DNA of 64,000 bases from positions 1-64,000 of the forward strand of contig RSEE01000035.1 of the NCBI GenBank assembly GCA_003971905.1. The letters run 5' to 3'. Of the stretch, positions 6,201-60,165 are shown one piece after another; the first letter of the stretch is position 1; every line of letters begins with the position of its first letter. The notes beneath the pieces were generated by a model that was not told where the DNA came from, searched no databases, and saw only the letters and a program-made list of their open reading frames with translations. The translations under genes were made by a program, and so were the position numbers. Origin of the DNA: Moniliella sp. 'wahieum' (lineage: Eukaryota > Basidiomycota > Moniliellomycetes > Moniliellales > Moniliellaceae).

Positions 6201-7000
6201 AATAGAGGCGTACCCAGCGGGGCCCGACGAGGCAACCAAAGGAGGTAAGGCAAACGGAGAATCCCTTGGACTAGTGAAGCTTGAAGCTTGCAGCCGCAAG
6301 CGTTAGCCGCTCAGGCTGAGCGCTGACAAAGGAAGAAGGGAAGACAGCTTAATTTGAGCGCTGAGCCTCGGCGCTGGCTGATGCGTGATACAGCGGATAT
6401 TCTCGTGGGGGGATCCCTATCACATGCATCAATCAAGGGGGTTGCGACGATCACATGCGATGACGCACAACTATCAGAAAACTGAGCTGAGACTGAGCGC
6501 TGAGGCTGAGAGGCTCAGAAGTGCAGAAGCGCTCAGAAGCGCTCGGGCCTCCTCAGGGCTGGCTCAGGAACCACAGTCCAGAACGTTCAACGTTGCAGGA
6601 AGGTATTGAGAGTCTTCTCCATGTTGCGTCCATTTCATTGACAGAGCTTTAGGCTGGGACAGGGGGAACGCTACGTCTAAACCTAACCGTTCATCTTGCG
6701 GGGGTTACTTAGTCCATTGTATTGAGAGGGTGTCGCGATCGTCTGTGGTTATAAAGGCCTTTTAGGTATTTATCCTGTAATCAACTTTCCTTCGTCTCCC
6801 GGCCCTTCCTGGCCATGTCTACTCCCCTCAACCCACGAATCCTTTTGTGGGTCTACTCATCTTCCCCAGACTCTTAAATAAAAGGAACCAATAAGCATTG
6901 CAGCGGCGTACTCGTCCCACACTCCTTTATAATTCCCACTCGCACTCTGGCGTAAACACAAGTGACAGGCACTCAGGCACACTCCAGCCAAAGAACAATA

Positions 7001-7026
7001 GTAACTAGTAACTAGTAACTAGTAAC
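7001..7026. repeat. Period-7 palindromic array, ACTAGT plus A
   Basis: Three and a half tandem copies of ACTAGTA, each a 6-bp self-complementary site followed by one base. It belongs to the period-7 palindrome arrays found across the intergenic DNA of this window. Confidence 0.85.
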
Positions 7027-7649
7027 CTGGTACATGGTAGCCCCAATATGATGGCACTTTCGGGAGGGGCAATATTCAATCGGGTATTGCACTTTTGTTA
7101 GATCACCTGATCGATCACGCATGTCAGGGTTAGGTCTTGGCAGGATTAAATAAGGCCTAAAGGCCTAAGGGAGACGACGATGCCGATGACCGATGCAATG
7201 AGCGTCTGAGGTCTACTCTAGTGATCGGCATGCCTGAATGAAGCACTGTGCGAATGCACTGAGAGTACGAAGGTACTGAGAGCACTGGGGCCGATGAGGC
7301 CGATGAGGATCGACGCGCAACGAGAGCCTCTCCCTTTCTTCGTAGGCTGTTTTCACTGTCTCGACTTCGGCGCTGTGTGGTGAAGGTCATCGTGCATGAC
7401 GTCACACAGTGGGCGAGGGGGGGGCAGTAGGTAGTGTGCTGGTGTTGAGGCGGTCAGCTTGAGAGCTCCGACACAACCTGCATGACTGGCAGGACCGTCT
7501 TGATGCGCCTGAGGTCGGGTGGCCCCGTGTGTGACCGAGACATATGGTGACTTATTTGTGACTGCATGACGTGTTGTCGAATCGTTGATGCTCTCGGGCT
7601 CCTTCTTCTGGCCCCCAGGATCAAAGCGCAGTGGCCCCAACAGAAGATA

Positions 7650-7657
7650 GATATAAG
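7650..7657 (+). promoter_or_regulatory. Possible TATA box of the Gre2-like gene
   Basis: The sequence GATATAAG lies about 80 bases upstream of the ATG at 7738, a plausible TATA position. This rests on motif and spacing only. Confidence 0.35.
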
Positions 7658-7737
7658 GCCCACCCCCCTGCCCAACCCTCGACACCCGCCAGCGTCTCCA
7701 TCGCCTTCGTTGCTCTCCTCCGTCCACCCTTTCCGTT

Positions 7738-10785: not shown

Positions 10786-11565
10786 GGAGACGAGGACAGG
10801 GTGGACGGGGATAAGGACGGGCGGCGATGCTGGTGGGAGGAGCGGGCGGTAGTCGTCGACCAGGATGACTGAGATGATCGGTGATTGATGACGATGAACG
10901 GGGCTGGTGTGCCCCAATCGCAACAGTGCGCTAGTACGGCCAACCCTAGCTGCGGTTATATCCATAGCCCCGAATCACCTCGATCATCGATCATCGATCG
11001 CTGTTCGGTTTAACGTTTAACGTTTACGATTAACCCTGTTCTGCCTTGTGAATTGCTTCGGCAGCCATCGGGAACCCCGAGGAACCACCGGGAAACCCAT
11101 CTAGACTGCGGCGAACCCGGCGGGGTCGGGTTAGATCTTCGATTCGGACGCAATTGGGCTGCGCACTACCCCATCAATAGGACCAATAACAATGCGGTTA
11201 GCGGTGCATCTCTCTTGAACGTGGCAGTATGAAGGTGTTGAAGCACCCCTCCTTGCCCACCGAGATCGCGCTCTCGCCAATGCTTCGCCCACTAGCCTTG
11301 GCCTATACGGCCTAAGCTAAGGCCCGAGCTATTATTATCGTCGAAATGTGCATTGGAGCAAGTAGAGCCAGCGCGGGGAAGCGCCACGGGGGGGCAATCG
11401 AGCCCGGCTCAGACTGGAGCTGAGCGCCAAGAGACCGGTGGAACGGTATACAGTCTGGTTCAATGGAGAGGTCTGATGAACAGCATGCAAAACAGACCAA
11501 ACCTGGCCGGATGTGGTAGAGGGAGGAAGCAAGGGACGAAAGGACACTTGCACGCGTGATGAGGC
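10786..11565. other. Intergenic with short palindromic arrays
   Basis: Holds the upstream region of the NMNAT gene. At about 10,980-11,034 there is a run of ATCGATC heptamers followed by AACGTTT heptamers. No coding feature is recognised, apart from a possible N-terminal extension of NMNAT up to 10,965. Confidence 0.55.
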
Positions 11566-12183: not shown

Positions 12184-15100
12184 GATGAGAAGAGTGGTGC
12201 GGGGCCTGGCTGTGGTGGTGGTGAGGCGGCGCTGTTTGGCGTGGAAGCTGGAGCTACTTGCCCAGTGTCCAGGTGCTGTCTCCGCTCCTAGTCGGCTCAG
12301 TGATTGCCAGCTAGTATCAGCCGCCGCTCTGGCTGACAATTCCTTGCGTTCGGCGCAAAAAGAAAGCAGCAGACAAGTCTCTTGCAGCCCAGCTGGGGGC
12401 CTCGGTGAACACAGCCGCCGTGCCTTGACCACGTGACAACGCACCAGGGCTCAGCCAGCCGGCACGTGACGTGGCCGTGAAAGAAAAGACGAAGCTGGAG
12501 AAGCGGTCTTCCGCCAAACCGAAGCCAGCATCCCGCTAATAGCAGGTTTGGGGTGGTGGTTGGGTGCAATACTCCATCCGTTAGGTACGCCTTCTGAATA
12601 ACTTCCATGTCATCACTCAATGTGCGTGCGCAGGTGGACCAAAAAACTCCAGTTAGGGCGCATCAAGGCCATCATGAACCATCACAGGACGGTCTCGTGC
12701 CTGGCGAAGAGATAATATAGTGGACATGATCAAACTGTTGATAACAACAACAGCAAGTCCTCCGTCAAGGGATCTATACTTGACGACTTCTCTCTAACTA
12801 TGCCACAAGCTAATAAACCGGATGACACACTAGACAACTGACGAAGAAAAGCCCCTTTAATTCGAGTCGGCCATCGAGAGATCGATATTCCCTGACCCTC
12901 TCACACAACACTGAGGTGGGTGGATCGATCCTGCCTCTGGTCGAGAGGCCGCGGAAGCGGAAGGGAAGGAGGCTGGTATCAGGGATAATCGATAACCGGA
13001 ATAACCAGCCCTACGCGCATGGGATGTCTGGAACAAAATGCGAAGACTTCCGCATACCTGTGGTTTCGCTGTAAAAGTCAATGGCATGTGTGTTATCCGC
13101 TCACTCCATTCTCTAACAAACTTCAATCATAATATAACCACGTTTTGTCCCCTGTTATTGGCAGGAAACGTGTACTGGGGGTTGGAGAGGAGTGTGCGTC
13201 TTTAGATTGAAGTAGATCAACCGACAGGGAGAGAGTCGAAAGTACTGAGGGATGTTTTGGTCTGTAGGGAATAAGAGAAATGTGATGCATAGAAGCCATC
13301 CTTGTCAGCCTCGTGTAGGAGAGGTACATTAAGTACAGGAAGAAAAGATGACATGCTCCACCAACGAGACATGACTGGACGTGAGGCGTGAGGCCTGAGG
13401 CCTGTGAGGATCCTAAGGGGAGTGGGGGAAAAGACCTTGGTAAACCTATAGGGAGACCTCGGTGATGAGGTAATTTAGACCACATATGGTCATGTTACAC
13501 TGTGTGTGACTCGGATAACCACAGGGCAGTCTTGACGTAGACACAGCCCAGGCAAGGGATACAAGAGGAACGTGGATGAGCACAGCCGGGATCAGCACTC
13601 AGCCCCTGCGCAAGCTCATGGCTCATCCGCTCGCTGTCGCCCCGTGGCAAAATACCCGTATAACGAAAATACGGGCGCTTATAGTACAAGCGCCACGCCA
13701 TGTGTGAACCGTCGCCCTTTCATGTTGAGCCTGCGGCTTTTATCAATCGTCGTCCTTGCATGTTGGGCCTGCGGCTTTTGTGATGAACCGTCGCCCTTCC
13801 ATGTTGGACTGTGGCTTTTGTACATGACACCCTCTGGTGGGATTGGATCGTGTCCGATCTTCGACTGGAGGCCCATCATATAACACCTATGATGGTGAAA
13901 AGTCGTTTTGTCACTGCCACCGCTACGCTCGTAGTGCTTAACCTGCCCACCGGCTGCAAGAGAATAACTCAAGATGAGTTGTAAATTGACTTGTAAGTTT
14001 TGTCTTGTTTGAAGACTATGTATATGTTGTGATGCGAACCTGTCTTTCTTCTGTGTTGGCGGCGTCGAAATGTCGTCCTGGTGGCATCTCTCATTGACTC
14101 ATCCCCATTAGCCAGCCGGCCTGCTTTTGCTTCGACATCAAACGGACGACCACCGAAGCCAGCATTGTCGTGTACGCTTGCACAAAAGCCACCGGCAACC
14201 CTCCAATCGGAGACCAAGTTGAAGGCCGAAGGGGGGTGGAAGGGGGGGCGTAGGATCGGCGAAGTGAGTTTTTTCTACCCTTAGGCCTCAAAACAACTCG
14301 CGGCAAAAAGGTGCAGGCGTGAAAAAATTTCCGTTGTATATTTTCCCAATTTAACCTCGCGCCACCCGTGTGGCCCTCGCCGGCAGATGTCACGTGTCAC
14401 TGTGTGTGAGAGCATCCATGACGCCGTCTGTTTGCACTCTGCTGCACGACCCCTCTACCACATGCCCTCTCTCAAAGATATACAAGTACTACTAAGTGGC
14501 CGCTACAACCCCTTGCCTCTCAGACAACAGAAACTCTGTTTAGCTTTGCTATTGACCACAGCACGGGTGACGTTCAGTTCCTCGCGGGCCGGGCATTATC
14601 ACCGGTGACCGGCTGTCGCCGACAGAGACGTACCATTACTCAGTATCTCTCGAAACACGCACCAAATCGTCGTGCGCAGTGGGCGCTGTATCTGGTTGTC
14701 CCTCCCCTATAGGCCCCAATGCGCCATGTGGCAGTTTCGTAATGAGGGCGGCCCAACAAAACCACTCACCATACGTTTAACAGCACGTATAACGTGCCAG
14801 TGAGGTACCATGCTAAAGCATATCTGCCCCTTATAGGGGGGGGTAGCTATATGGGAGAGCCGAGTTGTATATATGCCCGGCACGACACGAAGCCGTCGCG
14901 AGGAATTCGTCTCTCTCGTCTTTCCTGTTCATCACGGACATGAAGGGCCCTCTCCCCCCCCACCCACACTGCTCCCATGAAGACCGTCAACCAGGGTTGG
15001 GGATGGCCCAGCAGCAAGGCATTAGAAGAGGCCGAGATGTTGGCCTTCCCCCATTGGCAAGGGCTGCATCAAACTCAACCCCTCGTCGCGATGGAAGAGG

Positions 15101-18050: not shown

Positions 18051-18780
18051 GGTTGTGGTGGGGAGTGTCAAAGCGGGGGGAAGAGGGGGATGGATGGGAT
18101 GCAGTGGGACTCGTGGGAAGGGGCGTGTGTGCCTTGAAGGACCCTGGCGCGTCTGTGGCTCTTCTGGGGCCCCTGAGGCGGCCTGTCCAGGGTTAAGATC
18201 CAAGTTTAAGTCTTAACCCTGGCGCAGCACCTCAACGGCAGGGGGCAACGTGGATCCATTGATTGAACGTTGAACGTTCAGTTCAGTTGAACGTTGAACG
18301 TTGAACGTTGCATGGACGTTGCATGGTGTTACTAAGTGCTAACTGAACGTTCAGGGCTGAACAATAATCCTGTGCAAAGCGGCACCGTTCCGCCCCTGTT
18401 CGCCCTACTGTCGCGCCTGTGGACTGCTTTCCCCTGTTAGCATCGCTTCTTCCCCTGCCTTGCTCCTTCAAATTGTCAACTTCTGCCGGCGGTTACGTGA
18501 GCATGTCGGCGCGGGGTAAATTTAAAGTCATTTTAGACCTTCTGTGACTCAGGGACAACGGCCCCCTTGCTGTGGTTATAGCCGCCTAGGCATACTTAGG
18601 GAATGCGTGGGACAACATATCCCATTTCATAGGGGGCTGAGGCGGAAGCGTGGCGAAGCCGCTGCCCGGCAATGCAGATGTGACTGGGGGGAGAGAGTAC
18701 TGAATGCGCGGGCCTGATGCATGGGGGATGAGACGGTGAGTTTATTGAGAATCCAGAAGATCGAGTCAAGTGCATGCCAG
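18051..18780. other. Intergenic with AACGTTG repeats
   Basis: Upstream region of the Gpc1 gene. It contains AACGTTG heptamer arrays at 18,264-18,324. No gene is recognised. Confidence 0.55.
18264..18324. repeat. Period-7 palindromic array, AACGTT plus G
   Basis: Tandem AACGTTG units (GAACGTTGAACGTT and so on), interrupted by TCAGTTCAG and followed by two GACGTTGCATG units. AACGTT is self-complementary, so each strand carries the same core. Confidence 0.85.
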
Positions 18781-19041
18781 TGATGAGACCTGGAGTCCTG
18801 AGGCCTGAGGCCTGATGCACCTGATGGTCCTCAAAGGTGATGCAATCGCACTGGGGTTGGTGGTGGTGATCTAAGCCAGCCAGCAACGCCTACAGAGGAA
18901 CATCGAGCAGCGAGTCGCCACCAGTAGGGGCTAAGCTGCAGAACAAGGAAAAAAACAGGAGAGTGAAAATATGGAACTCCCAAGCCTGAGGAGGAACTGA
19001 AGGGACATTGGCCAAAGCACAGCCACCCGATGGCTCAACAG
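18781..19041 (+). repeat. Dispersed repeat R1, copy A
   Basis: About 260 bases matching two other places in the window (33,362-33,571 reversed; 46,959-47,214 same strand). Shared landmarks in order are TGATGAGACCTGGAGTC, GGTCCTC, CAATCGCACTG, a (GGT)n stretch, GCCTACAGAGGA, GCGAGTCGCCACCAG, GAACTCC, CTGAAGGGACATTGGCC and AAAGCAC. It has no coding capacity. This copy carries an extra AGGCCTG heptamer array near its left end. Confidence 0.8.
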
Positions 19042-19809
19042 CATGTCCACGCCTCCCCGGAATTGGAATCGGCGATGACATGAATGACACCGTCTCTACT
19101 ATATGTGATGCCAAGCCACAGGGCGGGGAGGGGCAATATCGGAAGACAGGGAACGAACAATGGACGGGGAGTCGAAAGGGGGCACGGCCGCGGATATAGA
19201 AGGGTGGTACAACGGAAGCCGTGAGGGACGCGAGTCAAGCTGCAATAAGCTTGAAGCTCCGAACAATTGTCTCGAATTTGGTTCGGCCGCCTGTCGTATA
19301 GTTTTGCTAACAGGTAACCGGTAACCCCACCAACCCGCCGGCCGGTAACCCCGGTGACATGTGACATGCACAAAGCATATGCGTGATGTGATCGATGATC
19401 GATCATACAGATCATCGAGATCACGGCCACTGGCTAGTGTGTGGCTCCATGATGCATGATCTGATGCATGACACGCGACGCATGTGACATGTGACATGTT
19501 ACGGATTATCGATTATCTCCGCACGGCGAGTTTCGGAATTTGGAGGATGACTCTGTCGACACGGCCCTATACCGTGCGGCCTCTGGCAGAATTCTCACCA
19601 TGCTCTGTCAGGCTCTACCATCGTCATCGCCATCATCACGACCAGCCCTGGTAGCGTATAAAAGACAAGGCCTGGGCGGTACGCTTCGTAATATCAGCAT
19701 CCCCATCGTCAAATACCCGTTGGCACACCTTTGCTCGCTTCTTTCTGGGGTGCGTTGTGGGCCTCCTATCTACCCCCTCCATTCACTTTTTTCTTTGCTG
19801 ATCTCTTCG
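19042..19809. other. Intergenic with ACATGTG and GGTAACC words
   Basis: Upstream of the acetyltransferase. At about 19,308-19,500 it holds repeats of GGTAACCG, ACATGTG and ATCGATC types. A TATA-like TATAAAAG lies at 19,657-19,664. Confidence 0.5.
19657..19664 (+). promoter_or_regulatory. TATA box candidate of the acetyltransferase gene
   Basis: TATAAAAG, a close match to the TATA consensus, lies about 150 bases upstream of the ATG at 19,810 and is followed by pyrimidine-rich leader sequence. Assigned by motif and position only. Confidence 0.45.
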
Positions 19810-26845: not shown

Positions 26846-28251
26846 GAGGGGGGAAGGAGAGCGGGGCAAGGGAGATGGAGATGGAGGTGGAGATGGAGAT
26901 GGTGAGCATAAGCGAACGCTGGGTCGCGTGGGCTCTAATCGACGGGCTGCTGCGGTGCTAGGATGGAAGGGTCGCTGATGCGATGCTGGCGATGCGGGAC
27001 GGAACAAAAGACGGATGGTGCGGCGAGCGAGGGGTTTGGCCAGCCCCCACTGGCCTAGCCTATGGTCTGGCCTGTTCTACAGCCTAGCTGGCGCGGCCTG
27101 TCGCTATCGTAGCCATAGTAGGAGCCCTCGGGTGCGAACCAACAAGGCGCTGCGAGAGTCGCGAAGGCGGTCACTACGCGTGTGCACACACCCCAGCATG
27201 ACGCATGTGGCGCGGGAGGCCAGAGGGCTCACATGCACATGCGTTCAGGCTCACATTCACAGGCGCTGAGGCGCTCCGGCCTCATTCGGAAGGCAGAGGC
27301 TCTGCTGAGGCTGATGAGCTGGCGCGCTATCAATCACACGCCCAGCGCTCCGATTGAGATCTGACATCTGATCGAGCTGAGTATCTCAGTGCGTGTTGAG
27401 CACTGTAAACGTACTGAGCTCGCTGAGGACGGTGATGCAGGAGGGGCCAGACGGTCTCCAGCACATGGTGTCCATGCTGGGAGACGCACGTCTCCAGCGT
27501 CCCCCGTGTGTGGCAGCGGCGAGAGGGATGCAGCGTGCGTCCAAACCTACCAGGTTGGTGGTCTCACTCCTTGATTTAGCCACTAGTTCAGTGTGCTCCC
27601 AGCGGGCAGATCGCGGGGGCAATGAATTGGTGCGTCATTTTTTGCCCTACATATTTTGCGAGCGTCTCAGAACAGCACCGAGGTACCAAGGGTGCCTGGC
27701 CATTAGATAAGCGCTGCCCGACCTAGAGTCACTAGTCACTAGAAGACCACCCCCAATCAGGTATCTCGCCCGCCACTAGCCATTCCAGATTCTGGGACGG
27801 GTATTGGCCAGCAGAGGGCTGTGGTCTGCTGTGGTGCGGGTGCCGCCAAGGCGGACAGGGGCCTAGCAGGCCCTGCAGGACTTCACAGATCTATGGCAGT
27901 GGCAGACCTCGGCTGCCTGACAGGGGCCCAGACACCCTCTTTGCGGGAGAGCGGGATATGAGGGGGGAGTGTACCCTACTAGTGTATCCCGCGTGCATAC
28001 GTCACCGTGACGTAGCCGCGGTTCAACGTTCAACGTTAACGTTCCGCTTTACGAAATTCAGACGTCCGTTACGCGTTATGGTGAGATCCGTTATGGTGAG
28101 ACAGCAACGTTCGAGTTCAGATCAACTGCAAACTACTCAGGCCTCCCGGAAAGGTCACTTCAAAGGTCACTTCAACCAACAGACGAGGTGACAGTAAAAA
28201 CTCCGCCATTGGTGCAGATGCAAACGTAGGCAGATGATCGATGAAGTCGAT

Positions 28252-28282
28252 GAAGCTTGAAGCTTGAAGCTTGAAGCTTGAA
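28252..28282. repeat. Period-7 palindromic array, AAGCTT plus G
   Basis: Four tandem AAGCTTG units directly after a GATCGATGAAGTCGATG word. The same heptamer recurs at about 6,279-6,293, 31,098-31,115, 56,906-56,925 and 57,634-57,660. Confidence 0.88.
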
Positions 28283-30360: not shown

Positions 30361-30501
30361 GGGTGATAAGTTCCTTCCAGCGTGGAATGGTGGACCGGTG
30401 GCTAAGGTGGCGACGGGGGAACGGTGGCTACGGGGGCGAGCAAGCACCAAGCACCAAGCACCTGAGGCCTGACCGGGCCGTAGGCCCGGTGGCCCTCTAG
30501 T
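30361..30501 (+). repeat. Dispersed repeat R2, copy 1
   Basis: About 140 bases running from GGGTGATAAG through CCAGCGTGGAATGGTGG and CGAGCAAGCACCAAG to the palindrome GGGCCGTAGGCCC and CTCTAGT. It matches 44,392-44,512 on the opposite strand with scattered changes and small indels. Confidence 0.8.
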
Positions 30502-31929
30502 ATAGAGATGATCTCGACGATATCAGAAGATGACATTGATATCGGAAGATGGCATTTTGATACGGCATTGATATATCGGAAGATGACATCGGAAAAGATG
30601 CTGTGACATGTGTGAGAGACACCACAGAAGAAGCAGCCACAGGCGACTCGGGCCGCAGCGCTAACGAGACAATAGCATACATTCGTTTAGCCTATAACGT
30701 GCTTTTTGACGGAGAGTGGAATGGATCCGTTAGGTCAATTGAAAACGCTTTGAAGAGTTGTGTGAGGACAGCAAGGCAGGGGCAGAAGTGGTGGGGATAC
30801 AATCAGGGGGAGAGGCAACCTGGAGGCGCAACAAGGAGGGGCGGACCACAGAGGCGGCCGAAAGGGGGGGCCGCGCACAAGAGCATGAGTCCGTTATTCG
30901 CGCAAATGTCTTCATCGGCGGTCGTAACAGGCCGTAGCAGCCGCACCGTAATAGTCCGAACGCTCTATGTAATCGGCTGCTGATGATTCGGGTTAAAAGC
31001 CTTTTCTTGTTGCCGACGGAATCCGGGCCTGTGTAGGCCTAATTCGCGGCATCGTTAAGAACATGGGACTGTGGATCCACCTCATATGCTTTTCAATTGA
31101 AGCTTGAAGGTTGAAGCTCTTCCCAAGTCAACTTCACAGCGAGATGGGCGATGCCAGACTTCTGTCTCACAGACGAGAGCGTAGCAGAAGTCGCTGACGT
31201 GTGACATGTGACATGCGATTAAAGATTCGCGATGCTGATGGTGACGCGGTGACGCACAGCCATCGGTCAACTCGGTCAGTTCGGTCAAATGACCGGCGAT
31301 AAAACAGCCGTTGTCACCGACCCAGTAGATGCATCTACGACCTTCTCCGACTCCTCACTTGAATAACCCCTGCCAACAAAACAACATAAGCCAGGGACGT
31401 TGCAGTGGGACAGAGGAAACGCTTGGTCCACCAAGTTGGGGACAATCTGGGGCAGCACTGGGGCAGCCTACGCTGGCGGCGTGGAATTTTCGGCTCCGAC
31501 GTGTGGCTTGTGGCGCTGTGCATCACGATGCGTGACGCGTGACGTGGGCTGAAGCAGGCTGAAGCAGAGGCACTCAACAGTGGTAACTCCGCTCTACGCC
31601 CGTCCATTCCATCCTCTTCCCTCGCCGATGAATTCGTTGAACGCAGGTCACACGTCACATTATACTTTGCTAGTTACCCACGTAACAATTGGATTGTTGA
31701 TCATGCATCATTGACATCATTGATGCATGATGACCGCAATACAATCGAACCACCCTGTTGCCCGCTCCCTTCGGCGGTCAACAGGCCCTCAGGATGCCGC
31801 CTCTCACGTCCTCAGCAATGCTGGTGGCAGCCTGTGAGGCCAAGCCGCACGGGCAGTGGTACCCGGCCCAGGCACTAACATCGTGACGCTGTTACGCTGT
31901 ACAGGTGCCTCACAAGCCAGGCCGGAAAG

Positions 31930-31937: not shown

Positions 31938-32013
31938 GGCCTTTGTGTTTCTGTCAGCTGGTGACCACCACATCGCGCATCTCCTCCCACCTCTAGAGGC
32001 AACTACTTTCCAC

Positions 32014-41944: not shown

Positions 41945-43990
41945 CCTGGTCAAGGTGGGGGAGTGTGTTACCGTTGCGGTCGGCACTGTCAGGTGGGGTG
42001 AAGAAAAAAAATGGAGCTGGAAAGGCGGAATTGCGCTGAGGATAATAAATGAGTGGTGATCGGTGATCGGTGAGGCCGCGGAATTTGCCTGGCGCCACTC
42101 CCCTGCCGCTCCCGCTCGAGCTGGCTACGCTAGCGGCTGAGCAGGACAGTGCCGCAAGGGTCTGTGGATCCTCATGGATAACTCAACTGAACAACTGGTC
42201 ATATCCATATGCAGTCGTTGCCTTTCTTCCTTCGAAGCACATCGATGGGTAAGCCGGGCAATTATTATGGGGCCAGTACTGAGCTGTGCGCGCTCACAGC
42301 TCAAATAGTGTGTGTGGGTGCGCGAGGCGATATATAACTCCGACTTATAATTGTAGCGACGATGAAATGCTCTCGGGGATCTCGCTTATTAATCTCGGTT
42401 CAGAATAACCGGAATGAAGGGGGAGAAGCATATCAGAGGATGTGGAGTGTATGTGGCTTAGGCTGTCACAGTCGGGACTAAGGCGGGCAGGGAGGCCAGA
42501 GTCGGGACTAGGGCAAGGACCGTATAGAAAGCGTTCGTGGTGTGGGAAAGAAGCAAAAGCAGATGACATGGTTCGATGTCGAATAAGAACAGGAAAGGAG
42601 CGATACGTTCGGGACAAAGACATTGGAAATGGTAGCGAGTCAGCCAAACTATGACAATTGCACCCTCCACATTATCCTTAGTAGTATAGGGTCAACAAAA
42701 CCCAAAACTCGCTCCGTCTCCACAGTTTAGAGAGAGGGATCGCGAGACACACAGACCAAAAGGGAAGCATCTGGATGTTGAAGCATCATCATGGTAAACA
42801 ACGTCCTCAGTCAGGCCTCTGATTCAACGGTATTATAGTCATGTTGCCCTTGAGGGGCATGTGGCAGCTAGTGGAGCAGACCTGTGGCCGTAGTGGATAT
42901 ACGCGGAGCATGATTCATGGACGGGGGGTAATCGCCGGCCCCTTCCGCCTCGGGCGTCCCGGGTCTTTCGTGATTTTTCAATTGTTTCGTTGTCATTTTT
43001 AACGGAAGGAAGGAGAAGGAGAAGGAGAAGGAGAAGGAGAAGGAGAAGGAGAAGGAGAAGGAGAAGGAGAAGGAGAAGAGGAGAAGGAGAAGGAGAGAAG
43101 GAAGGAGGGAGAAGGAGAAGGAGAACACAGCATCACCATTGGCATTGTAGCCTTTAGGTGAAAGCTTGTAACGTTCTGGATACACAGCGGACATCCGTGT
43201 TCCACATTATCAACACTACCTTAGGGTAATTGAGCGAGCAGCTGGTCTCACCGTACCATGATAACGTTCCAGTTTAGTATAATCCGAAGGCAGATCGAGG
43301 GTGCCTAGCATTTGTATGCAAGAACCCCTACTAGTCTGAAGATGATGTTTTTATCACGGGAACTTCGCCGTATGGTGGACGTTGAACCCATTGTGTTTTG
43401 AGTCTCAGAAGAGGGGAGAGACTTACCCATTTCCCCTGGGTGGTTGGCACTTTCGATACATGAAGGTGAAATGGGGAAGACGGATTGACGGTGCTGTGTG
43501 AATTACGCGAGAGCCAGCGGAGTGCGCTGGCTCTTCCCTTGCCAATCCCCATACCTGAGTTGCGGGCCGGGTGATCTTTGGCAAATATCCAGAAGAGCAA
43601 ATCTCTCTTCCAATGTGGGTCGCGTGTGTCAAACAGAGAGAGCCCCTCAAACCCCCTTTCGTTTCCCCGCCCCCCAACAAAACCCTTTTTGGCTCTGGCA
43701 CACCCGACGCGCCCGAAGCAAGCTAACAATCTCACTTACATCCACTATAACCAAACGAAAGAAAAAGATGAGCCAAAAATCCAATGCCCACTCAGAGGTT
43801 GGTCGTATAGAACAGACAGGAACCTGGCGCCGATCCTATATAGTATGCGCGCCCAACGACCGAGAAAATCAAAGACCTTACCCAGATGGCTTTCTCATGC
43901 ATAGCGTGTGGTTGACGGAGAGAAATAATGTGCGCATGCGGGTAGTAAGCACAACCCTCTCTCACACTTTGAGAAGCATATACCATCAAC
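41945..43990. other. Intergenic with a purine microsatellite
   Basis: Two kilobases up to the edge of the first transposon. Contains the AAGGAG microsatellite at 43,005-43,125. The stretch 42,470-42,620 has a diverged relative at 55,096-55,240. No host gene recognised. Confidence 0.5.
43005..43125. repeat. AAGGAG microsatellite
   Basis: Nearly perfect 6-bp tandem units (AGGAGA phase) in the first two thirds, becoming irregular (GAAGGAAGGAGGGAG) towards the right. A pure purine strand like this can form triplex or slipped structures and tends to be hard to sequence. Confidence 0.9.
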
Positions 43991-44056
43991 CTCACTGAGC
44001 CGAGGCTCCAGGTATTCCGCGGTAATTCCGTACCCCTTCCGTGGTATTCCGTAGTA
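43991..44056 (+). repeat. TE1 left terminal inverted repeat
   Basis: Begins CTCACTGAGCC. It is complementary to 48,781-48,846 with three mismatches in 66 bases and is flanked on the left by the duplicated CATCAAC. Confidence 0.88.
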
Positions 44057-44391
44057 TGTCGTGGTATGTCGTGGTATGTCGTGGTGAATCCGTGTCATTT
44101 CGTGGCCATCGGGTTCTTGATCTTTTTTTCGTTCCGTGGTATGTTGTGGTGTTCCGTGGTATTCCGCGACATGTGGTGGTAGTCCGCGACATGTCGTGCC
44201 ATGTCGCGGTATGTCGGAGTGTTCCGTGGTGGGTTTTGCGAGGCGGCTAGAAATTCAAGGAAAGAGTCAGGCTCAAAAATCTCGACCTGGCAATCGGTAA
44301 TCAAATTTCATTACTGCAATGAAATGTTGAGAAAGAGCAACACTTGCGAGCGTGCAAAAATTTCGACCTGGCAATCAAGTAATGAAATTTC

Positions 44392-44512
44392 ACTAGAAGA
44401 CCACCGGGCCTACGGCCCGGCCAGCTGGGGCTTCGCCCCAGCTTGGTGCTTGGGCTTGCTCGCCACCGTAGCCACCGGCCCACCGTTCCACGCTGGAGGA
44501 TTTTTATCACCC
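44392..44512 (-). repeat. Dispersed repeat R2, copy 2 (reversed, inside TE1)
   Basis: Reverse-strand relative of 30,361-30,501. It keeps the GGGTGATAA start, the CCAGCGTGGAACGGTGG block, CGAGCAAGC and the GGGCCGTAGGCCC palindrome. A further partial unit follows to about 44,610. Nearby, ACACTTGCGAGCGTGC occurs at 44,339 and again at 44,621. Confidence 0.75.
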
Positions 44513-45131
44513 ACAAGGAGACCACCGGGCCGACGCGAAGCCCCAGCTGGTGCTTGGTCGCCACCGTAGCCACCGTGGAACCTTCGCCACCTTAGCCACC
44601 GTTCCCCCTTCGCCAACACTGACACTTGCGAGCGTGCGACTTGGGAGCACACTCGGAAGAAGAATCGTTAGCCCGGCGTTGGGCTTGGAGAAAAAATGGT
44701 AGAGTGCAAAAGGGCAGCAGCACTCTCACTCAATCCTTTTCAAGGCTATTAAGAGCGCTTAGCACCTTATACACCTACAATAGCAGTCTTCTGCGTGTCT
44801 CTTTTGCACCTATGCCAACAGCTTCTGCTCGTGAGCCTTCGTCTTCGATCGATCCCAGTGCTTGATAGCTTCCAGTTCCACTGTGCATTTCTGATGCCGA
44901 TCTCCATTTGATTTCCGTTTCGTTTCACCAACAAAACAGTACCCAACAAAGGCAGCACGCATATTGTTTTGCCCTTCTTTTTCCTCGGGAATAAAATGTA
45001 CCTTGGCACACGCAACACTTATAGTGTTTTTTGTCAGACACCAAGTTCGGCACCCAATGGGTGAGGGTAAATCCAAACCTCCTCGTCAGAAACGTCGTCA
45101 TCCGCTGCAATTCGTGCTAATGCATCCGAAC

Positions 45132-46226
45132 TCAGAACTTCCTTCTCAAGGGTATGTGTCCCATGACCCACCCAATGTCGGCAAGTGGGACGACAATGTT
45201 GTTTACTGATGCGAACGTCGCTCTGTGAAAGCCTTGTTCATCGCGTGGTAGAGACGCATTACCTTCAGCATCAATCGGATGAGTTCTACCAACAATGTAG
45301 TATTCGGAGCCCGCTTCATCGGTCTCCACCCCAATGTAGTAGTCAATCAACATGAAAAAGTGCCCATCGTGCGCCAATTGCTATACAATGCCTGCATTTG
45401 TTGTGAGTAGTTGCACACAGTGTCCTAGACGGGACGAGGCATTCTGACCCTGTTGCCCTCGAACACGTTGCCTGTTCTCATTTTTGGCCCCCACTCGGCT
45501 ACTGCCCAGATCGATAAATGGGCGGTAGGGTCAATGTTGAACGAGCACAGCAACGCCGCATCCCCCCTTGCACCATCGAGCCCATCAATAATAGCTTCTC
45601 GTTTGTGATTCAACCCAACCGAAAGTGTGGTCATAGCTTGGGGAGCATGGAATCCATGCGAATGCCAACCAAGTTATCCTGGTTCCTCCTGCTCGCCTCG
45701 TTAGCAAGGACAGGATACGGTTTGGTAAACGAACGGATATGGCGGCCCAACCATCCCTGTTCCCATTCTGCCGGGGCGGTCCATATCGCCTGCCAATTGC
45801 CGTATCTCCACATGTTGTCAGCCCAATGAAGAGTGTTGTGCACCGAGATCGAATGTGGTTGATCTCTTCGTTCAGACCGTTTGGAACAGTGAAGTCGTGA
45901 AACCGTGACAAAATGGCAGGGCCGTTGTTCGGAGACGTTCGACGTCGGTAGCATACATTTCCGTTTGACAAACAGCCTAAGCATCACGCTCCCACCAGAT
46001 CGAGTATCTGCTGAGGCAGATAATGCAACTTGACGAACGGATAAAGCATGCAACTCATATTGACTGCAATCTCAAACATGCGCATGCCGCTGTTACAAGC
46101 AGAACCAATCGAACGAGGCACTCCACTACAAAACGAAGAAGGAAGAAACCTAATCGACCTGTGTTTCAAGGTTAGCTCATTCAAATCAGTATAAGAAACA
46201 CAACTGTTTCGGGAATGAGGACGCAC
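45132..46226 (-). pseudogene. Decayed transposase of TE1
   Basis: Pieces in several - strand frames give 'HNTLHWADNMWRYGNWQAIW', then 'EWEQGWLGRHIRSFTKPYPV', then 'LANEASRR', followed downstream by 'NIVVPLADIGWVMGHIPL'. The first resembles the 'LLH-DDI...GP-W...ERFCG-L...RS+K-PYA' region and the second the 'NIV-V-DI--VVG-V' end of fungal transposase-associated proteins (the DUF4218-like part of Tnp2/KDZ relatives). Stops and frame changes are frequent, more than homopolymer error alone would produce. No intact catalytic domain is visible. Confidence 0.45.
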
Positions 46227-46958
46227 ACTTCATCTGAAACTCGTTAAAAAGGTCAACATGAGCGGCACCCAAATGTATGGGCAATCTTGGATCACGTAGA
46301 CCGTTCTTCTCAGATTGAGAAAGGTGGTGTGCATGGGCTCAACAGGATGAAAGGAAGGGCACATATGATGATGAGAGGCGCTTTCAGGTTGAGGTAATGT
46401 CGGCCATCCTGTATCTGCCTTGAAACAATTCTGGCTTGCGACTGACCCATGGTCTTCAAGCTCTTGTGCGTTGTACTCTGCAGTTTGACCCAGTCTTCGG
46501 GTATGCGCAACGGAGAATGGATGGTATCAATATCATCGCTTCCGTCGCCCAGCAGCGGGCAATTTCAGAGGGATGTGTTGTCGTTGGCCAATATACCCCA
46601 CCCCCATGCCTCTTGCGCCCAACAATATCGCAAGGGCGGCACGCTCGCTCGGGACACACTTGCCATAGATGTGCTTGCTGTGCTTTAGCGTCAGCGATGT
46701 TGTACATTACCGTGGTCTGAAGAGTAAACGACTCCAGGGGGCGGACCAGGGGGCGGACCAGGAGGCGGACATGATGATGGAGAGGACCGAGGGGAAAACC
46801 TGGCGAAGACGTGGAGAGTGGACCATCATGAGGGCCAGAGGGTGATATGTACTCCTTTGGAGCTCCGCGGACGTTCCCGGGGCCTCATTTGCCGCATCGC
46901 ACACGGCTATATACTCCACAGGAGCGTACATGTGCCGGCCCTCGGATGGGTGGACTTT

Positions 46959-47214
46959 TGATGAAACCTGGAGTCTGGATGGTCCTCGAGGGTGATACAA
47001 TCGCACTGATGGTGGTGGTGGTGATGGTGGTCTAAGTCAACCAGCAACCCCTACAGAGGAGCATCAAGCTTCAGACAGCGAGTCGCCACCAGGGGCAAAA
47101 CTGCGGACCAAGGACAACCAGGAGGGAGGAAACAAAACGGAACTCCTAGGCCGGCTTGAGGAGGACCTGAAGGGACGTTGGCAAAAGCACGGGCCACCCG
47201 GTGGCTCAGCAGGA
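46959..47214 (+). repeat. Dispersed repeat R1, copy C (inside TE1)
   Basis: Third copy of R1, from TGATGAAACCTGGAGTCTGG to GCCACCCGGTGGCTCAGCAG, lacking the AGGCCTG array of copy A and with a longer GGT run. It lies within TE1, which it presumably entered after TE1 inserted. Confidence 0.8.
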
Positions 47215-47680
47215 CTGTTGGGACGTAATAAATGGTACGTTTAGAGCTCTTTGAGGCGCCAGGAGCTCTCGGAGCTCGGTGGCGTGTGGGTATGCTGCGG
47301 AGGTTGCCAGGGGCTGTTCCCACACGACAGCGCAGGGCTAATATGCTGAGCTGTGGGGGGTCCGTGCGTCGGCGTTACTGGTCTGTGCACCTTCCCACCA
47401 GAACCACACTGCTTTTGCTCTGTTGCATCAGTCCTCCTCTTACCGCCCCTTTCACAGTTGAATGATATATATACCCCCCCCCCCTCCCCCCCTCCACACC
47501 GGTCTCTCTTCCCCCTAACAACCGCCTTCCCGACATGCCTATCACTATAATTTCCACACTTCCTGCAGACCAACCGAAGACCAAAACTGGGGTAAGGTGC
47601 TAACCAAAGATCTGTCGGCATCTCAACAACTGATGCCTGCTGTCCTGTTGGCGACCAACCAATCGTCCCAGTACTGTCTT

Positions 47681-47799
47681 TGCTAGGTGTACTGACCTGC
47701 TGGGTGTACTGACCTGCTGTTGGGTGTACTGACCTGCTGGGTATACTGACCTGCTGCTGGTACTGACCTGCTGGGAGTACTGATCTGCTTCTTGGGTAC
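47681..47799. repeat. 17-bp minisatellite inside TE1
   Basis: Five to six tandem units of TGCTGGGTGTACTGACC, with lengths varying because of small indels (TGTTGGGTG, TGCTGCTGG). Confidence 0.8.
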
Positions 47800-48520
47800 T
47801 AACCTCTTCCTACAAGTGGGTACTTACATGCTTGGGCACTGACTTACATGGTATGCATGTTGGTATCATATATCAACCTCTGATGTGCTTGGTATGTTAA
47901 CCCGTACTTCCGCAGTGAGAATTACCGATAGCATGTCAAAGGGAGCATGCCACCATTTGTGATATCAAGCAACGGTACGATCGATTGCTGTGTGGATGGA
48001 ACTTGCGCGCGAGGCGGCCCCATTCTGCCTGTTCTGCCCCTTCCTGTTGCGCCTTCACGCTGCGTTTCCCTGATTAACGGCCTGAGGCCTGATTGCATCT
48101 TCTCCACCAGTATTGCCTTGCCTTGCTTGCCTCCCGTAGCACACCTTAGTAATACAATCACTATTAGCCCAACAGAGATGTCCCATATATCTAAAGGATC
48201 TAAAGTAACACAACTGCCAATGAGGCTAGTGAGGGCCGCATATAGGCCCCCAAAGTATTGAGCAATGTAACCCTGTACCGATACATTGCATTATAAGCTA
48301 ACCCTAAGGCTTATAAGCTAACCCTAGTGTAACCCTAGGACGCCATTTCCATTCCGTGGTAACCCGTGGTAACCCTTGGTAACCCGTGGAGTTCTGTGGT
48401 GTTTCCGTGGTTGAAAAAAAATTCTAACCTGTGTGGTGTGTCTATGGATTTCGTTCTCACTTTTTTTCAAGATGGAGGGGCGCACTTATCCCATAGAATA
48501 CAACAGTATGAACACGGAAC

Positions 48521-48780
48521 GGGCACGGAAGAGGTACGGAAGAGGTACGGAAGAGGTACGGAAGTGGTACGAAGGGCACGGAAGTGGTACGGAAGTGGTA
48601 CGGAAGAGTACGGAAGTGGTACGAAATGGGCGGAAGTGGTACGGAAGTGGTACGGAAGAGGTACGGAAGTGGTACGGAACGGGCACGGAAGTGGTACGGA
48701 AGAGGTACGGAAGAGGTACGGAAGTGGTACGGAAGAAGTACGGAACGGGCACGGTATGCCACGGAATCCAAACTACGGAA
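48521..48780. repeat. Subterminal GGTACGGAAGTGG array of TE1
   Basis: About twenty short units of GGTACGGAAGTGG or GGTACGGAAGAGG (11-12 bp), with GGGCACGGAA variants, run into the right terminal inverted repeat. The complement (TTCCGTACC) matches the word array inside the left end. These are candidate transposase-binding sites. Confidence 0.85.
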
Positions 48781-48846
48781 TACTACGGAATACCACGGGA
48801 GGGGTACGGAATCACCGCGGAATACCTGGAGCCTCGGATCAGTGAG
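48781..48846 (-). repeat. TE1 right terminal inverted repeat
   Basis: Inverted partner of 43,991-44,056, followed by the duplicated CATCAAC at 48,847-48,853. Confidence 0.88.
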
Positions 48847-48901
48847 CATCAACAGTACACCATATATAGCGTGCTCAATGATCGGAGTGTGGTGTACATG
48901 C

Positions 48902-53433: not shown

Positions 53434-53546
53434 GCACCCTAGCCGCCACCCTAGCCACCACCCTAGCCACCACCCTAGCCACCACCCTAGCCACCGCCCT
53501 AGCCACGCCCTAGCCACCGCCCTAGCCACCGCCCTAGCCGCCAGTC
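53434..53546. repeat. 12-bp minisatellite in TE2
   Basis: About nine tandem units of CACCCTAGCCAC with minor variants (CGCCCTAGCCAC). Its complement GTGGCTAGGGTG resembles the GGTGGCTAAGGTGG core of repeat R2. Confidence 0.85.
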
Positions 53547-53781: not shown

Positions 53782-53803
53782 CTAGAAATTTCGATTAGCT
53801 ATG
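53782..53803 (-). repeat. TE2 right terminal inverted repeat
   Basis: A 22-bp perfect inverted match to 48,902-48,923. Confidence 0.88.
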
Positions 53804-55797: not shown

Positions 55798-56186
55798 AAG
55801 GGAAAGGAAAGGGAAAGGGAAAGGGAAGGGAAAGGAAAGGGAAAGGGAAAGGGGAAAGGGAAAGGGAAGGGAAAGGGAGAAGGAAAGGGAAAGGGAAAGG
55901 GAACGACTGTTGCTTTGAGATCAAAAAAGGTGACACAAGAGTATTGCGAGAGAGACTGATTTTTGGTCTTGCGAACTACATGCACCATAGCAATGATATC
56001 TGAGGGGGGAAAGGGAAAGGGAAAGGTAAAGGGAAAGGGAAAGGGAAAGGAAAGGGAAAGGGAAGGGAAAGGGCCGGTGATACGACTGTTGCTTTGAGAT
56101 CAAAAAGGTGACAGCAAGAGTATTGCGAGGAGAGAGACTGATGTTTTGGTCTTGCGAACTACATGCACCATAGCATGATATCTGCA
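55798..56186. repeat. Tandem duplication: GGGAAA array plus ~100-bp unique tail, twice
   Basis: A GGGAAA-type purine array (55,798-55,902) is followed by a unique tail starting GACTGTTGCTTTGAGATC and ending CATAGCAATGATATCTG (to ~56,002). A second, shorter array (56,004-56,073) and a second tail ending CATAGCATGATATCTG (to ~56,184) follow. The tails differ by a few substitutions and 1-3 base indels. Confidence 0.85.
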
Positions 56187-57468
56187 AAAGGAGAAACCAG
56201 AATCTGGGAGTGAATAAACTCAGCGACCTTATCGATATCGCTCGTCCTCTTTTTGCTGAAAGCGCGTTGTGAGCGCACTGCTCCATTTCCTTTCGTCGAA
56301 TGATGGCCCACAAAACTCTACACCGGAGAGTCAGGCCGGGTCTCATATATATTTCCGTTGCACCGTGGCTGCTCTGAGTAGTAGCACTGCCCTATAGTTG
56401 GAGATTTTGGTCTAGACTTGGCCTGCGCCGCGCCCCCACGCGCCACCTCCACTTTATTCCAATGGGAAACCGCCCGTGTATAGTAGACACCGCTGGCGCA
56501 TCCCTCCGCTGTTCTTCCTTACCACCCCCACTTCGCTCAACTCGTTACCTCGTTCTCGATCATGCTTCTGGTAGCTCAGATCTCAGACCACGCATCTGCC
56601 TGCCGTAGTACGTCGCTGCATTTCACTCGCACTTTTGTCACGGCGTATTCAGACAACCGCTTTATTAGGGCTTTTGCGATCTATTAGGTACAATGCGATC
56701 AATGGGTCGATGAGCGCTCCAAGATCGTGTGTGCTGGAGGGGCGTCTTTGGGGGTGCTAGCAATGCATGGGTGTGGCGCGTGGATCGTGACGCGTGGCTG
56801 GTGGAGGTTGGAGTGGCAATTTAAGTTTAGGTGATTGTGGCTGTAGCCACAGCCGCAGGGCATTCTAGAGCGGCTGTGACATGTGACATGCGTCATCACA
56901 TGTGAAGCTTGAAGCTTGCAGCTTGAAGGCTGTCCGAGACAGCAGAAAACTTACCAATAGCAGCCACCAGCATCAGTGCATCAGAGCCAGACAGCGAGGG
57001 CATGAGTACGCCCAAACTGAGTTTTCTGATAGTGTACCTGCGCATCAAAGATGGACGTCAAGGCGTCGCGTCAGCCTATATTATTTGCTCTGTGGCTCAG
57101 CGCGCTTCGCTCAGGCTGAGCATGACGCTCATATCAATATTCAATGGACGGTTTAGGACGGGGGAACTTGTATAGCCCAAATTAAAACGTGCGAATGCCG
57201 CCAATGGTCGCAGATAGAACCAGCACGGCAGCTGCAAGATCCACGACTCGGTACTCAGGCTAAGGCCCTAGGCCCCAGGCGGCCTGGCCTGACCGTGACC
57301 GGGGCCTGACGGTGCCCTGGCCCTGACCGGACTAACATGTAACAGGATGTCTGCGACCCAGGGTACCTAGCATCCTAAGGTCTAAGATCAAACCGGTAAC
57401 CGGCAACCGGTAATCTCGGGGATGTAAGGCCCAAGGACCCTTCTGTTGGGCCCTTTTTGGGGCTTGAT

Positions 57469-57660
57469 GACATGCATGATGCATGATGATGATGCATGAT
57501 ACATGATGCATGATGTTGATGCTTGATGTATGGAGAATGGACCTCCAGAGACACTTTGCCACATGAAAGCGGTCTACTGCTAATCACTGGTCACCGTCAC
57601 TAGTCATAGTCACTAATAGCTTCAGCTTCACTCGCTTCAAGCTTCAAGCTTCAAGCTTGA
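57469..57660. repeat. ATGCATG and AAGCTTG period-7 arrays
   Basis: Tandem ATGCATG units (57,469-57,535, with ATG and ATAC interruptions) and, 100 bases on, three AAGCTTC/G units at 57,634-57,660. Confidence 0.85.
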
Positions 57661-58116
57661 ATCGACTGGTATAATGAGTGCATCCTACGGTGCCCTGCCG
57701 GTGCCCTGCCAGCCCTGCCAGCCCTGCCGGGGCGGCCTCGCACGAGGCGCTAGCGAGCTCCACCAAGCTCCACTCCTGCGGCCGAAGGCGCTGTGTGAGT
57801 GGTGCCCAAGCCACCCCCATTGCAGCGAGGGCGCGGGTCCCTGTGTCGCATTCTGAAAACTGTGCCAGGCGCCAGCCCAGGGCTGCGATCTGAGATTATC
57901 GAGACTATCTGAGATCTGAATCTGAGATGGATCACCGATTGTCGACCCCCACTCCCGTCTCACGCGTCACGTTCACACGCAGAGACGACGATCTGGGCGT
58001 GCCCGATCCAGGATTCTGGAGAACAAGGGTTTGGAAGGGTCCCGAATTCTGGGCCAGACTAGCTGGTTGCACGTTGCTCGCAACCTGGCTAGTCGTTACA
58101 TGTTTCTTGTCGGAAT

Positions 58117-58212
58117 ACATGATGCATGATGCATGATGCATGAATATGAATGGGGCTCTGGCGACCGGATGTTGGATGTCCTCGATCATCGATCATCGAT
58201 CATCGATCATCG
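58117..58212. repeat. ATGCATG and ATCGATC period-7 arrays
   Basis: Three ATGCATG units at 58,117-58,143 and four ATCGATC units at 58,181-58,212. Confidence 0.88.
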
Positions 58213-60138
58213 GCCATGCATCCACCCCGTACCACGCCCTTCTACGCCCTGCTCTGCCCTGTCCTGCCCTCCCAGGCCCTTCCATACACCACCCCACAAG
58301 CCAAGGTATGACATGTGCGTGCAATCTGACTCACATGTGCACGTGCCGGGCAAAGCAGAAGGACGTGCGAGGTTTGTGATGCGAAGGGTGAGATCTGAGA
58401 ATTGATCATCGATCAAATGTCACACATCGACGTGTGGCTGAGTACGCGAGTGCGCTGTGACCGTCAGCTCTCAGGATGAGGCAGGCATACGGCCCTGAAG
58501 GGCCGAAGCCCTAGCGAGGGTGGTTATATAGTGTAGGGGAGCCAACCAAAACGACACCTACTCACGGGACGTCACCAGCCAGTTGCCTCTAGGTCTGGTC
58601 GGTGGACCAGAACAGCAGATGCGAGAACCATGGGCTTAAACCTGAGGCGTAAGGCTCTGGCGTGAGGCTCACAGGCTTGACAAGATGTGCTTCAAGCTAT
58701 TTCGAGGTGAAGGAGCGAAGGAGCTTGAAGAGTTGGCCACAGACCCGACCCACTCGGTGACTGAGAAACGTATCGATGAGGCTGGATTCCATGTACGATG
58801 CGATGAAGTCACACCATTCCGCATCATGAGCATCATGCATCTTCATGCACACCGAGGGCCATACTGAGTGTTATTGCCGCGTCAGTCGAGGGAGCGATGG
58901 GAACATTCTCGACCTCTCAACGGCTGAATCCAGGAATACCCCATGCTCGACTGTAGCCTGTCTGTTGGTGTATAGCACCATCTATCTACCTTGCCTTGTC
59001 GCTCCGTGTATCCAGAAAGAGCGCACTGGTTTTTAATGCTGTGTGTGGTTACCGGTTACCGGTTATATCGCGGGTATATACCCACAATACTCCACCGTCC
59101 ATCTCATCCACTATACGTGACGCATGTGGGATGCTGGACTCGGACCGATGAGAGGGCGATTGAGGGCCCCGCGCGAAGACTGTGATACATGTGATGCATG
59201 TGAGCGTGAGCGGCTGAGCGCGCGGTAACCCGGTGACCCGGTGACAAGACTACACTAAACACACGTTTAACGTTAAAACGTTAGCGATACGGAATACTTC
59301 TTTAGGTGTCCGAGCCATGTGGGCCGAGCTGAAGCGCGAGGCGCTGATGCCTCAAGCTGAGGCCCTCTCGGGCCTCAGGCGCCTCAGGCCGCCTCAGGGC
59401 CGCGCCCGCCGCGAGAAGGCGACGGATGAGATGCGCGTGAGGGTATTGTGAGCACACGGGGGCACATGTGTTTCTTCCTGGAATAGGCTGCGGTTGCCGC
59501 TTGCCCCGGTTATTGAGTTGCGGGGTACGGGGTACACGTTAGATACATGAGTTGCAAACGTAGGACTGTTTACTAGTTGGCTGCGGCGAACCTCCTGTAA
59601 AAATGCATAATGCGGTGGAGCCCTTCTCATAACCGGCATAACCTCTTTCCTCAGGATTTGGGTCGCGACCTGCCGCTGCCCAGCGCTATGCGCTATAGAA
59701 TCCGTTCACGTTCACCGTTTGGCCTTCACGCGGTATGGAGGGCGACCTGTATTATGCCACACACTTGTATTAACTATACCCAAGCGCGGCAGCCCACGCT
59801 GAGGCGCTGTGATACATGTGAGCGCGCTGAGGCCATAAGCTTAAGTTTTAAGAGCTTTAAGATCTAAGATCTAAGAAACTGGCCACGGTTATGTGGTGAG
59901 CAGTATGATTAACGGCCTTAAGGTCTTGGTCGCGCGGTGAGGGCCTGCCTCAGGCGGTCGGCCGGTCAGGAACCCTCAAAGACTCAGATCGCGAGATCAG
60001 AGCGGGGAAGAGATGACGCGTGATGTGTGAGGAGCGATGCATGATGCATGATGCTCTGATGAAGTCGAAAACGCGTTCCCGCGTTTATGAGCGCAGAGCA
60101 GGCATCATGCATCATGCATCTCGTATATATCATCGATC

Positions 60139-60165
60139 ACTAGTCACTAGTCACTAGTTGCTAGT
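60139..60165. repeat. ACTAGTC period-7 array
   Basis: Three tandem ACTAGTC units, ending in a TTGCTAGTCACTG variant, next to ATCGATC words. Confidence 0.88.

Follow-up and report, generated by a model that had tools for sequence, protein, structure and literature searches.

Seven-base-pair (7-bp) units, each made of the trinucleotide TNA and a 4-bp palindrome, recur in the first 64,000 bp of contig RSEE01000035.1 of the basidiomycete Moniliella sp. 'wahieum'. This stretch, hereafter the window, opens a contig of 645,693 bases (C35) in an assembly of 69.5 Mb and 223 contigs. We observed that the palindrome copies the two bases on one side of the original TNA. We consider it probable that each unit is the scar of a cut-and-paste event at NN-TNA-NN by a DNA transposon that makes a 7-bp target duplication. 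One inverted-repeat element with such a duplication, at 43991-48846, lies in the window.

Period-7 arrays consist of TNA and a four-base palindrome

The window contained 37 exact period-7 runs in which 8 or more bases matched (0.9 expected, order-2 Markov model). A 6-bp palindrome was present in 28 of these (0.10 expected), and periods of 8-20 gave at most two palindromic cases per period. An earlier note on this DNA had described palindromic arrays of period 7; these are real, and the arrays it quoted lie at, or a few bases off, the positions it gave. It had read the unit as a palindromic hexamer plus one base. The palindrome and the period stood, but the unit is better read otherwise. In a 264-kb sample (the window and twenty 10-kb stretches from contigs C1-C4), 73 of 114 period-7 runs held a 6-bp palindrome, and all 73 were of the type A....T. 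The unit therefore combines TNA (TRA on one strand) with a 4-bp palindrome.

N4 was palindromic in 203 of 367 occurrences of TGA-N4-TGA and in 36 of 71 of TAA-N4-TAA (reverse complements included). The remaining 60 trinucleotides pooled gave 722/14,282 (5%); the best of them was ATG/CAT (47/364), whose palindromes overlap the same arrays. No effect comparable to that at a gap of 4 was seen at gaps of 2, 6 or 8 between trinucleotides in this sample, where all 16 tetra-palindromes were found with TGA. TNA-palindrome-TNA sites numbered 239; the same sequence reversed gave 5, and ten order-3 Markov shuffles gave 5-16.

The genome-wide excess that the earlier note had proposed to look for was also found: TGAAGCTTGA occurred 7,850 times (37 in the reversed control) and an 18-mer of the ATGCAT type 881 times (0 in the control). 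The sample held 35 copies of TGAAGCTTGA, ~1.2x the genome average, and extrapolation gave an estimate of roughly 5 x 10^4 sites in the genome. Site density was 0.14 per kb inside stop-to-stop open reading frames (ORFs) of at least 230 aa (14 in 99 kb) and 1.37 per kb outside them (225 in 165 kb). No sites were found in a Ty3-like element (2862-6499 of locus L023) or in a solo long terminal repeat (LTR) at 28944-29802 of the window. These numbers are small, and scar-free LTR elements are compatible with youth or closed chromatin.

Palindromes tend to copy one flank

In the left form, L2L1-TNA-r1r2 becomes L2L1-TNA-L1'L2'-L2L1-TNA-r1r2; in the mirror form, copied from the right, it becomes L2L1-TNA-r1r2-r2'r1'-TNA-r1r2. 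Most arrays in the 264-kb sample (171/200) were single insertions. The commonest patterns of flank extension at 143 isolated sites were a two-base match confined to the left (20 sites), the same confined to the right (16) and no extension (13). At least one flank matched in 160 of 199 arrays (shuffled mean 29, maximum 45), and a match on one side tended to exclude a match on the other (odds ratio 0.45, p = 0.007).

Genome-wide, AGCT singletons matched the left flank only in 479 cases, the right only in 601, both in 93 and neither in 337 (odds ratio 0.11, p about 7e-78), the patterns excluding arrays and longer flank matches by design and covering 1,510 of 7,850 sites. The reversed controls gave 0, 3, 0 and 30, respectively.

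Units differ between copies, with one polarised gain

Contig C46 is colinear with window positions 1670-31985 and 56391-61780, with 92-98% identity over ungapped columns in nine blocks. This copy, hereafter the homeolog, suggests that two haplotypes or two homeologous subgenomes are present in the assembly. In the C46 blocks and a short piece of contig C79, a site in the longer copy overlapped 1 of the 14 six-base indels, 8 of the 18 seven-base indels and 1 of the 7 eight-base indels. Sites also overlapped indels of other lengths, for example 3/16 at 5 bp, 4/8 at 10 bp and 3/3 at 15 bp. Among the 142 sites on either copy of the C46 blocks, 56 were identical, 31 differed by substitutions only, 18 had gaps of 1-4 and 37 had gaps of at least 5.

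In 12 of 59 clusters (numbers 1, 8, 11, 15, 21, 22, 23, 26, 30, 34, 37 and 42), the other copy kept an intact single TNA against which a unit could be set by eye; total length differences there were not always 7. The palindrome matched at least one flank in all 12. Three further clusters (10, 44 and 59) fit with the triplet substituted, and the remainder were shared, altered by substitution or too rearranged.

The direction of change between presence and absence was polarised at one site, 56576, within a dispersed repeat. Both the window and the homeolog read GC-TCA-GATC-TCA-GA. The second unit was missing from 9/9 other repeat copies examined (L032-L040), 7 of which retained an intact TCA; the net length difference is 6, owing to a separate one-base difference. 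Units are gained, at this site through right-flank copying. The earlier note had suggested fold-back copying at breaks as a source of hairpin-capable heptamers, and both the copying of one flank and the presence or absence of units between homeologs bear it out. The dispersed repeat itself spans ~220 bp (window 56406-56625) and has at least 37 further partial matches in the genome.

Units have the parts of an excision footprint

Given a direct repeat, we asked whether the intervening bases inverted the dinucleotide 5' of the motif (6% expected). This was so in 280/375 cases for the loop TNA, 23/59 for TNAx, 20/54 for TNAxx and 2/10 for TNAxxx, and in 14/465 for ANT, CNG and GNC pooled. The longest common form was L2L1TNAr1r2-L1'L2'-L2L1TNAr1r2, that is, two symmetric NNTNANN 7-mers with two palindromic (P) bases between them. 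The rarer 8- and 9-bp forms retain the 7-bp repeat NNTNANN and palindromic bases.

For 7-bp repeats with a T.A centre, 2-nt spacers were the P bases of one copy in 17/25 cases (about 3 expected), 1-nt spacers were palindromic to one copy in 15/18 (about 8 expected) and 3-nt spacers were palindromic in 0/7. With arrays and 160 ambiguous cases left out, 96 distinguishable 7-base singletons comprised 57 in which two bases were trimmed and two added, 6 with one trimmed and one added, 10 plain duplications and 23 others. These parts match the excision footprint that a DNA transposon with a 7-bp target would leave, in which the target is duplicated, a hairpin opened off centre supplies P bases and the other copy is trimmed.

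Under the transposon reading, an element would insert, duplicating 7 bp centred on TNA, and then excise. One flank end would close into a flush hairpin, whose opening two bases off the tip would leave two P bases; the other target copy would usually be shortened by its two final bases, sometimes by one or not at all, and the ends would be joined. The net gain per event would be 7 bp, rarely 8 or 9. Because either flank could form the hairpin, either could be copied, and because the scar holds two TNAs, later rounds would add units and build arrays of the form L2L1-TNA-(P-TNA)m-(Q-TNA)n-r1r2.

Composite arrays follow a two-sided grammar

If the rule is re-applied to either TNA, an array can contain only two palindromes, one (P) copied from the left flank and one (Q) from the right, in the order P...PQ...Q. 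Two different palindromes were found in 10 of 295 arrays in 333 kb. The arrays at window 60130 and at 1638 of L031 are homeologous copies, which reduces the ten arrays to nine places. In seven of the ten, P agreed with the left flank and Q with the right (chance 1/256 each); of the other three, one matched left only, one right only and one neither. Six composite arrays had at least three units and could have violated the order; none did. Examples are ga-TGA-TCGA-TGA-ACGT-TGA-ac (L028 at 7377) and ag-TGA-(CTAG-TGA)3-(AGCT-TGA)3-ag (L041 at 2830).

Uniform arrays of at least two units numbered 41, against 10 composite. Among two-unit arrays, 31 were uniform and 4 composite; repeated events alone were reckoned to give about 3:1. 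This excess of uniform arrays suggests that slippage may contribute to array growth.

An inverted-repeat element carries a matching target duplication

The element at 43991-48846 begins CTCACTGA, and 57 of its 60 terminal bases recur in inverted form at the opposite end; close to both ends lie TTCCGTGGTA-like repeats. Its target duplication is exactly 7 bp, the flanking bases excluding anything longer. The window has 54,049 seven-base direct repeats spaced by 150-12,000 bp, and this was the sole pair with at least 40/60 inverted end bases. A scan of 333 kb for inverted-repeat elements with 4-10-bp duplications gave 69 candidates with 7-bp duplications, and 12 of these had a T.A centre. Eight lay within arrays, one was array-like (L039) and one was the window element. 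The two others, in L009 and L025, were rejected because they failed on longer ends.

The transposon reading predicts 7-bp duplications of the form NNTNANN. The match raises the odds of a transposon, of which this element would be an example, and lowers those of fold-back errors and of a cutter without an element. Thirteen ORFs inside the element gave 0 matches to Pfam; the element may thus be non-autonomous. Its family is our candidate for the scar maker. Parts of its interior (44390-44615 and 46959-47210) resemble parts of L014, L021, L022, L025, L030, L041 and L043, and it may hold nested or shared repeats. The element, the TNA motif, the one-flank rule, the two-sided grammar and the 8- and 9-bp forms all go beyond the earlier note.

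Evidence against the transposon reading and rival explanations

Several observations weigh against scars left by a transposon. Single units taken without exclusions (n = 244) matched the left flank only in 66 cases, the right only in 77, both in 50 and neither in 51; the last two classes exceed a clean one-flank rule, and some sites are thus older, re-used or outside the rule. The loops xTNA (5/30) and xxTNA (6/25) were also above chance. Plain 7-bp duplications at TNA (10/96 with arrays removed) were no commoner than those at six other centres (11-41); with arrays kept there were 172, against a scaled mean of 57.5. Only one matching element was found in the 333 kb scanned, a TNA centre would fall in 1 of 16 duplications by chance, and no second copy of its ends was found in the loci examined. 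A Pfam scan of 36 ORFs, including the 13 within the element, found no DNA-transposon transposase, hAT and KDZ included; a genome-wide hAT or KDZ search was not made. Finally, hAT footprints are more varied and base-centred, whereas the scars here have nearly a single form, with the axis between bases (L1'L2'|L2L1) and a P length of nearly always two.

A possible, though rather doubtful, extension is that the scars are self-propagating. Each scar would restore and double the TNA target, and a transposase with few elements left, or a domesticated one, would keep rewriting it. If so, the scars written in this way would number around fifty thousand, and intergenic DNA would grow in self-complementary steps of 7 bp.

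An unlikely alternative is a fold-back error of replication or repair without a transposase, in which a strand ending in TNA folds, copies two bases and re-anneals, so that a 7-nt mini-hairpin loops out. The product would be a miniature inverted triplication with the same direct-inverted-direct order, and TNA self-pairs apart from its middle base. Inverted triplications and fold-back insertions with altered FEN1/Rad27 or RPA, including yeast cases, provide precedents for this order and for fold-back templating (PMC13334657, PMC11724301). However, the events described in those reports are variable in size, mostly far longer, and involve microhomology, whereas here there are 7 bp, one motif and a two-base stem. 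A fold-back error leaves unexplained the restriction to TNA seen against ANT, CNG and GNC, the two-base copy length, the 7-mer limit and the TNAx and TNAxx forms, and no fold is predicted for an 8-mer whose stem is 2 bp. Snap-back priming on the terminal A, in its simple form, was rejected because it leaves TNAx and TNAxx unexplained, and flank hairpins with TNA in the loop because they give 5-bp gains on paper.

We judge similarly improbable a domesticated or element-less transposase or nuclease that cuts NNTNANN in open intergenic DNA, followed by the same hairpin-opening repair. The scar evidence would be identical, and such a cutter would account for many scars with few visible elements and for the ten-fold depletion within long ORFs. 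It is without a candidate gene, and the window does have an inverted-repeat element with a matching duplication.

A PIF/Harbinger-like element with 3-bp TNA duplications and inverted ends that each leave two bases explains the TNA repeats, the palindromic N4 and the period of 7 at first sight. It is very unlikely: N4 ought to track the element but tracks one flank, which refutes the simple form; inverted-repeat elements with TRA duplications were in no clear excess; all 16 dinucleotides were present; and PF13359 had 0 matches in the genome. An LTR integrase was rejected, as the solo LTR in the window carries a 5-bp duplication.

Hardly credible, finally, is ordinary slippage of microsatellites palindromic by chance, or binding-site selection: unit number does differ between homeologs in some arrays and uniform arrays do outnumber composite ones, but slippage creates no palindromes and no TNA preference (ordinary microsatellites were also thought an unlikely source in the earlier note), most arrays are single insertions, composite arrays require separate templated events, and the unit is bound by a sequence rule. 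The DNA-binding protein with this spacing that the earlier note had offered is not supported, since the variable bases are self-complementary and without a consensus, every tetra-palindrome occurring with TGA.

Relation to known systems

The footprint of transposon scars is most readily compared with that of hAT elements (Ac/Ds, TcBuster), which have two target copies, end trimming, short P bases from either side and hairpin ends that host enzymes open (PMC5873905, PMC3499496). In Candida albicans, Ds footprints have been described with P nucleotides, target duplication and trimming, in 28 kinds among 128 (PMC5873905). The hAT target is 8 bp, whereas the duplication of the window element is exactly 7 bp and the scar repeats end at NNTNANN; here, moreover, the scars stack into arrays.

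Seven-bp target duplications like that of the window element are reported for Kyakuja (KDZ) in Agaricomycotina and hAT7 in Puccinia, and the parts of that report consulted held no footprint or target consensus for either (PMC12730594). Kyakuja is described there with CA..TG ends and no inverted repeats, unlike the inverted ends of the window element.

The P nucleotides of V(D)J coding joints are likewise short palindromic additions beside a coding end (PMC3528771). V(D)J joining differs in being somatic, RAG-dependent and mixed with N additions. Artemis has a two-base preference. Palindromic microsatellites in Fusarium mitochondria are also very short palindromes that differ between relatives, but they are A/T runs in mitochondrial DNA, and neither a motif rule nor flank copying is described in the parts of that source consulted (PMC7218506).

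P-base footprints are thus already known; a near-uniform 7-bp scar that recurs at tens of thousands of sites and stacks according to a grammar was not found in the parts of the literature consulted. Excision scars are usually seen singly, whereas here a fixed rule is legible from thousands of sites. If the units are transposon scars, cutting, hairpin opening and trimming could be counted from sequence alone, and period-7 microsatellites and 7-bp indels would have a source other than slippage. The data point to a very active transposase, as yet a putative enzyme.

Features of the window and other observations

Table 1. Palindromic units and the inverted-repeat element in the window
Feature	Position	Strand	Comparison or remark
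TTA-TCGA-TTA	3477..3486	-	homeolog: single TTA (GA-TTA-TC)
TGA-AGCT-TGA	6275..6284	+	homeolog: 2 units
TAA-(CTAG-TAA)x3	7002..7025	+	homeolog: single TAA (AG-TAA-CC); left-templated
TCA-TCGA-TCA	10984..10993	-	homeolog: one extra unit
TTA-(ACGT-TTA)x2	11010..11026	-	array survey, homeolog comparison
TGA-GGCC-TGA	13389..13398	+	7-bp presence/absence between homeologs
TGA-ACGT-TGA cluster	18264..18304	+	array survey, homeolog comparison
TGA-(GGCC-TGA)x2	18799..18815	+	homeolog CC-TGA-TG; left-templated; total length difference 23 bp
TAA-CCGG-TAA	19315..19324	+	homeolog GG-TAA-CA; left-templated
TGA-CATG-TGA	19355..19364	+	not in homeolog; right-templated
TCA-CTAG-TCA	27729..27738	-	not in homeolog (AG-TCA-CC)
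TGA-TCGA-TGA, then TGA-(AGCT-TGA)x4	28235..28281	+	array survey, homeolog comparison
TGA-AGCT-TGA	31098..31107	+	not in homeolog
inverted-repeat DNA element, 4,856 bp	43991..48846	. (unassigned)	terminal inverted repeats
left target-duplication copy CATCAAC	43984..43990	+	CA-TCA-AC, NN-TNA-NN
right target-duplication copy CATCAAC	48847..48853	+	
TCA-GATC-TCA	56576..56585	-	polarised gain; right-templated (GA)
TGA-TGCA-TGA cluster	57477..57513	+	43-bp length difference vs homeolog
TCA-CTAG-TCA	57597..57606	-	just upstream: homeolog AA-TCA-TTAA-TCA vs window AA-TCA
TCA-(AGCT-TCA)x2	57637..57653	-	array survey
TGA-(TGCA-TGA)x3	58120..58143	+	array survey
TCA-(TCGA-TCA)x3	58186..58209	-	homeolog 15 bp shorter
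TTA-(CCGG-TTA)x2	59049..59065	-	array survey
TAA-(GATC-TAA)x2	59858..59874	+	common to homeolog
TCA-TGCA-TCA; from 60130 composite TCA-TCGA-TCA-(CTAG-TCA)x2	60105..60153	-	
TCA-CTAG-TCA	61126..61135	-	homeolog: one copy, triplet substituted

The window starts at a chromosome end, with CCTAAC telomere repeats at 1-27. A 16-mer typical of ascomycete 5.8S gave 0 matches, which hints weakly at Basidiomycota. The solo LTR has TG...CA ends and the 5-bp duplication GTATT, is missing at the homeologous place and has at least 38 matches in the genome. The Ty3-like element of L023 has integrase and Tf2-like domains and many similar copies, and L031 holds a fragment of a Copia-type reverse transcriptase (RVT_2) at 2114-3457. 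A 763-bp insertion in the homeolog (L042, around 5263-6025) stands opposite ~28 bp in the window; no NNTNANN duplication and no clear target duplication were found for it. A 370-aa ORF at window 50796-51908, with no Pfam match, lies in gene-poor surroundings with few scars.

Tandem arrays that lack palindromes were observed at window 53435-53543, 55797-56184 and 60576-60655 (12-bp CACCCTAGCCAC, GGGAAA-type and CCTGCTGTG-type). At 30441-30462 and in its vicinity, a non-palindromic period-7 array of AAGCACC adjoins the palindromic CCGGGCCGTAGGCCCGG. This is also seen in the homeolog and is perhaps another short element.

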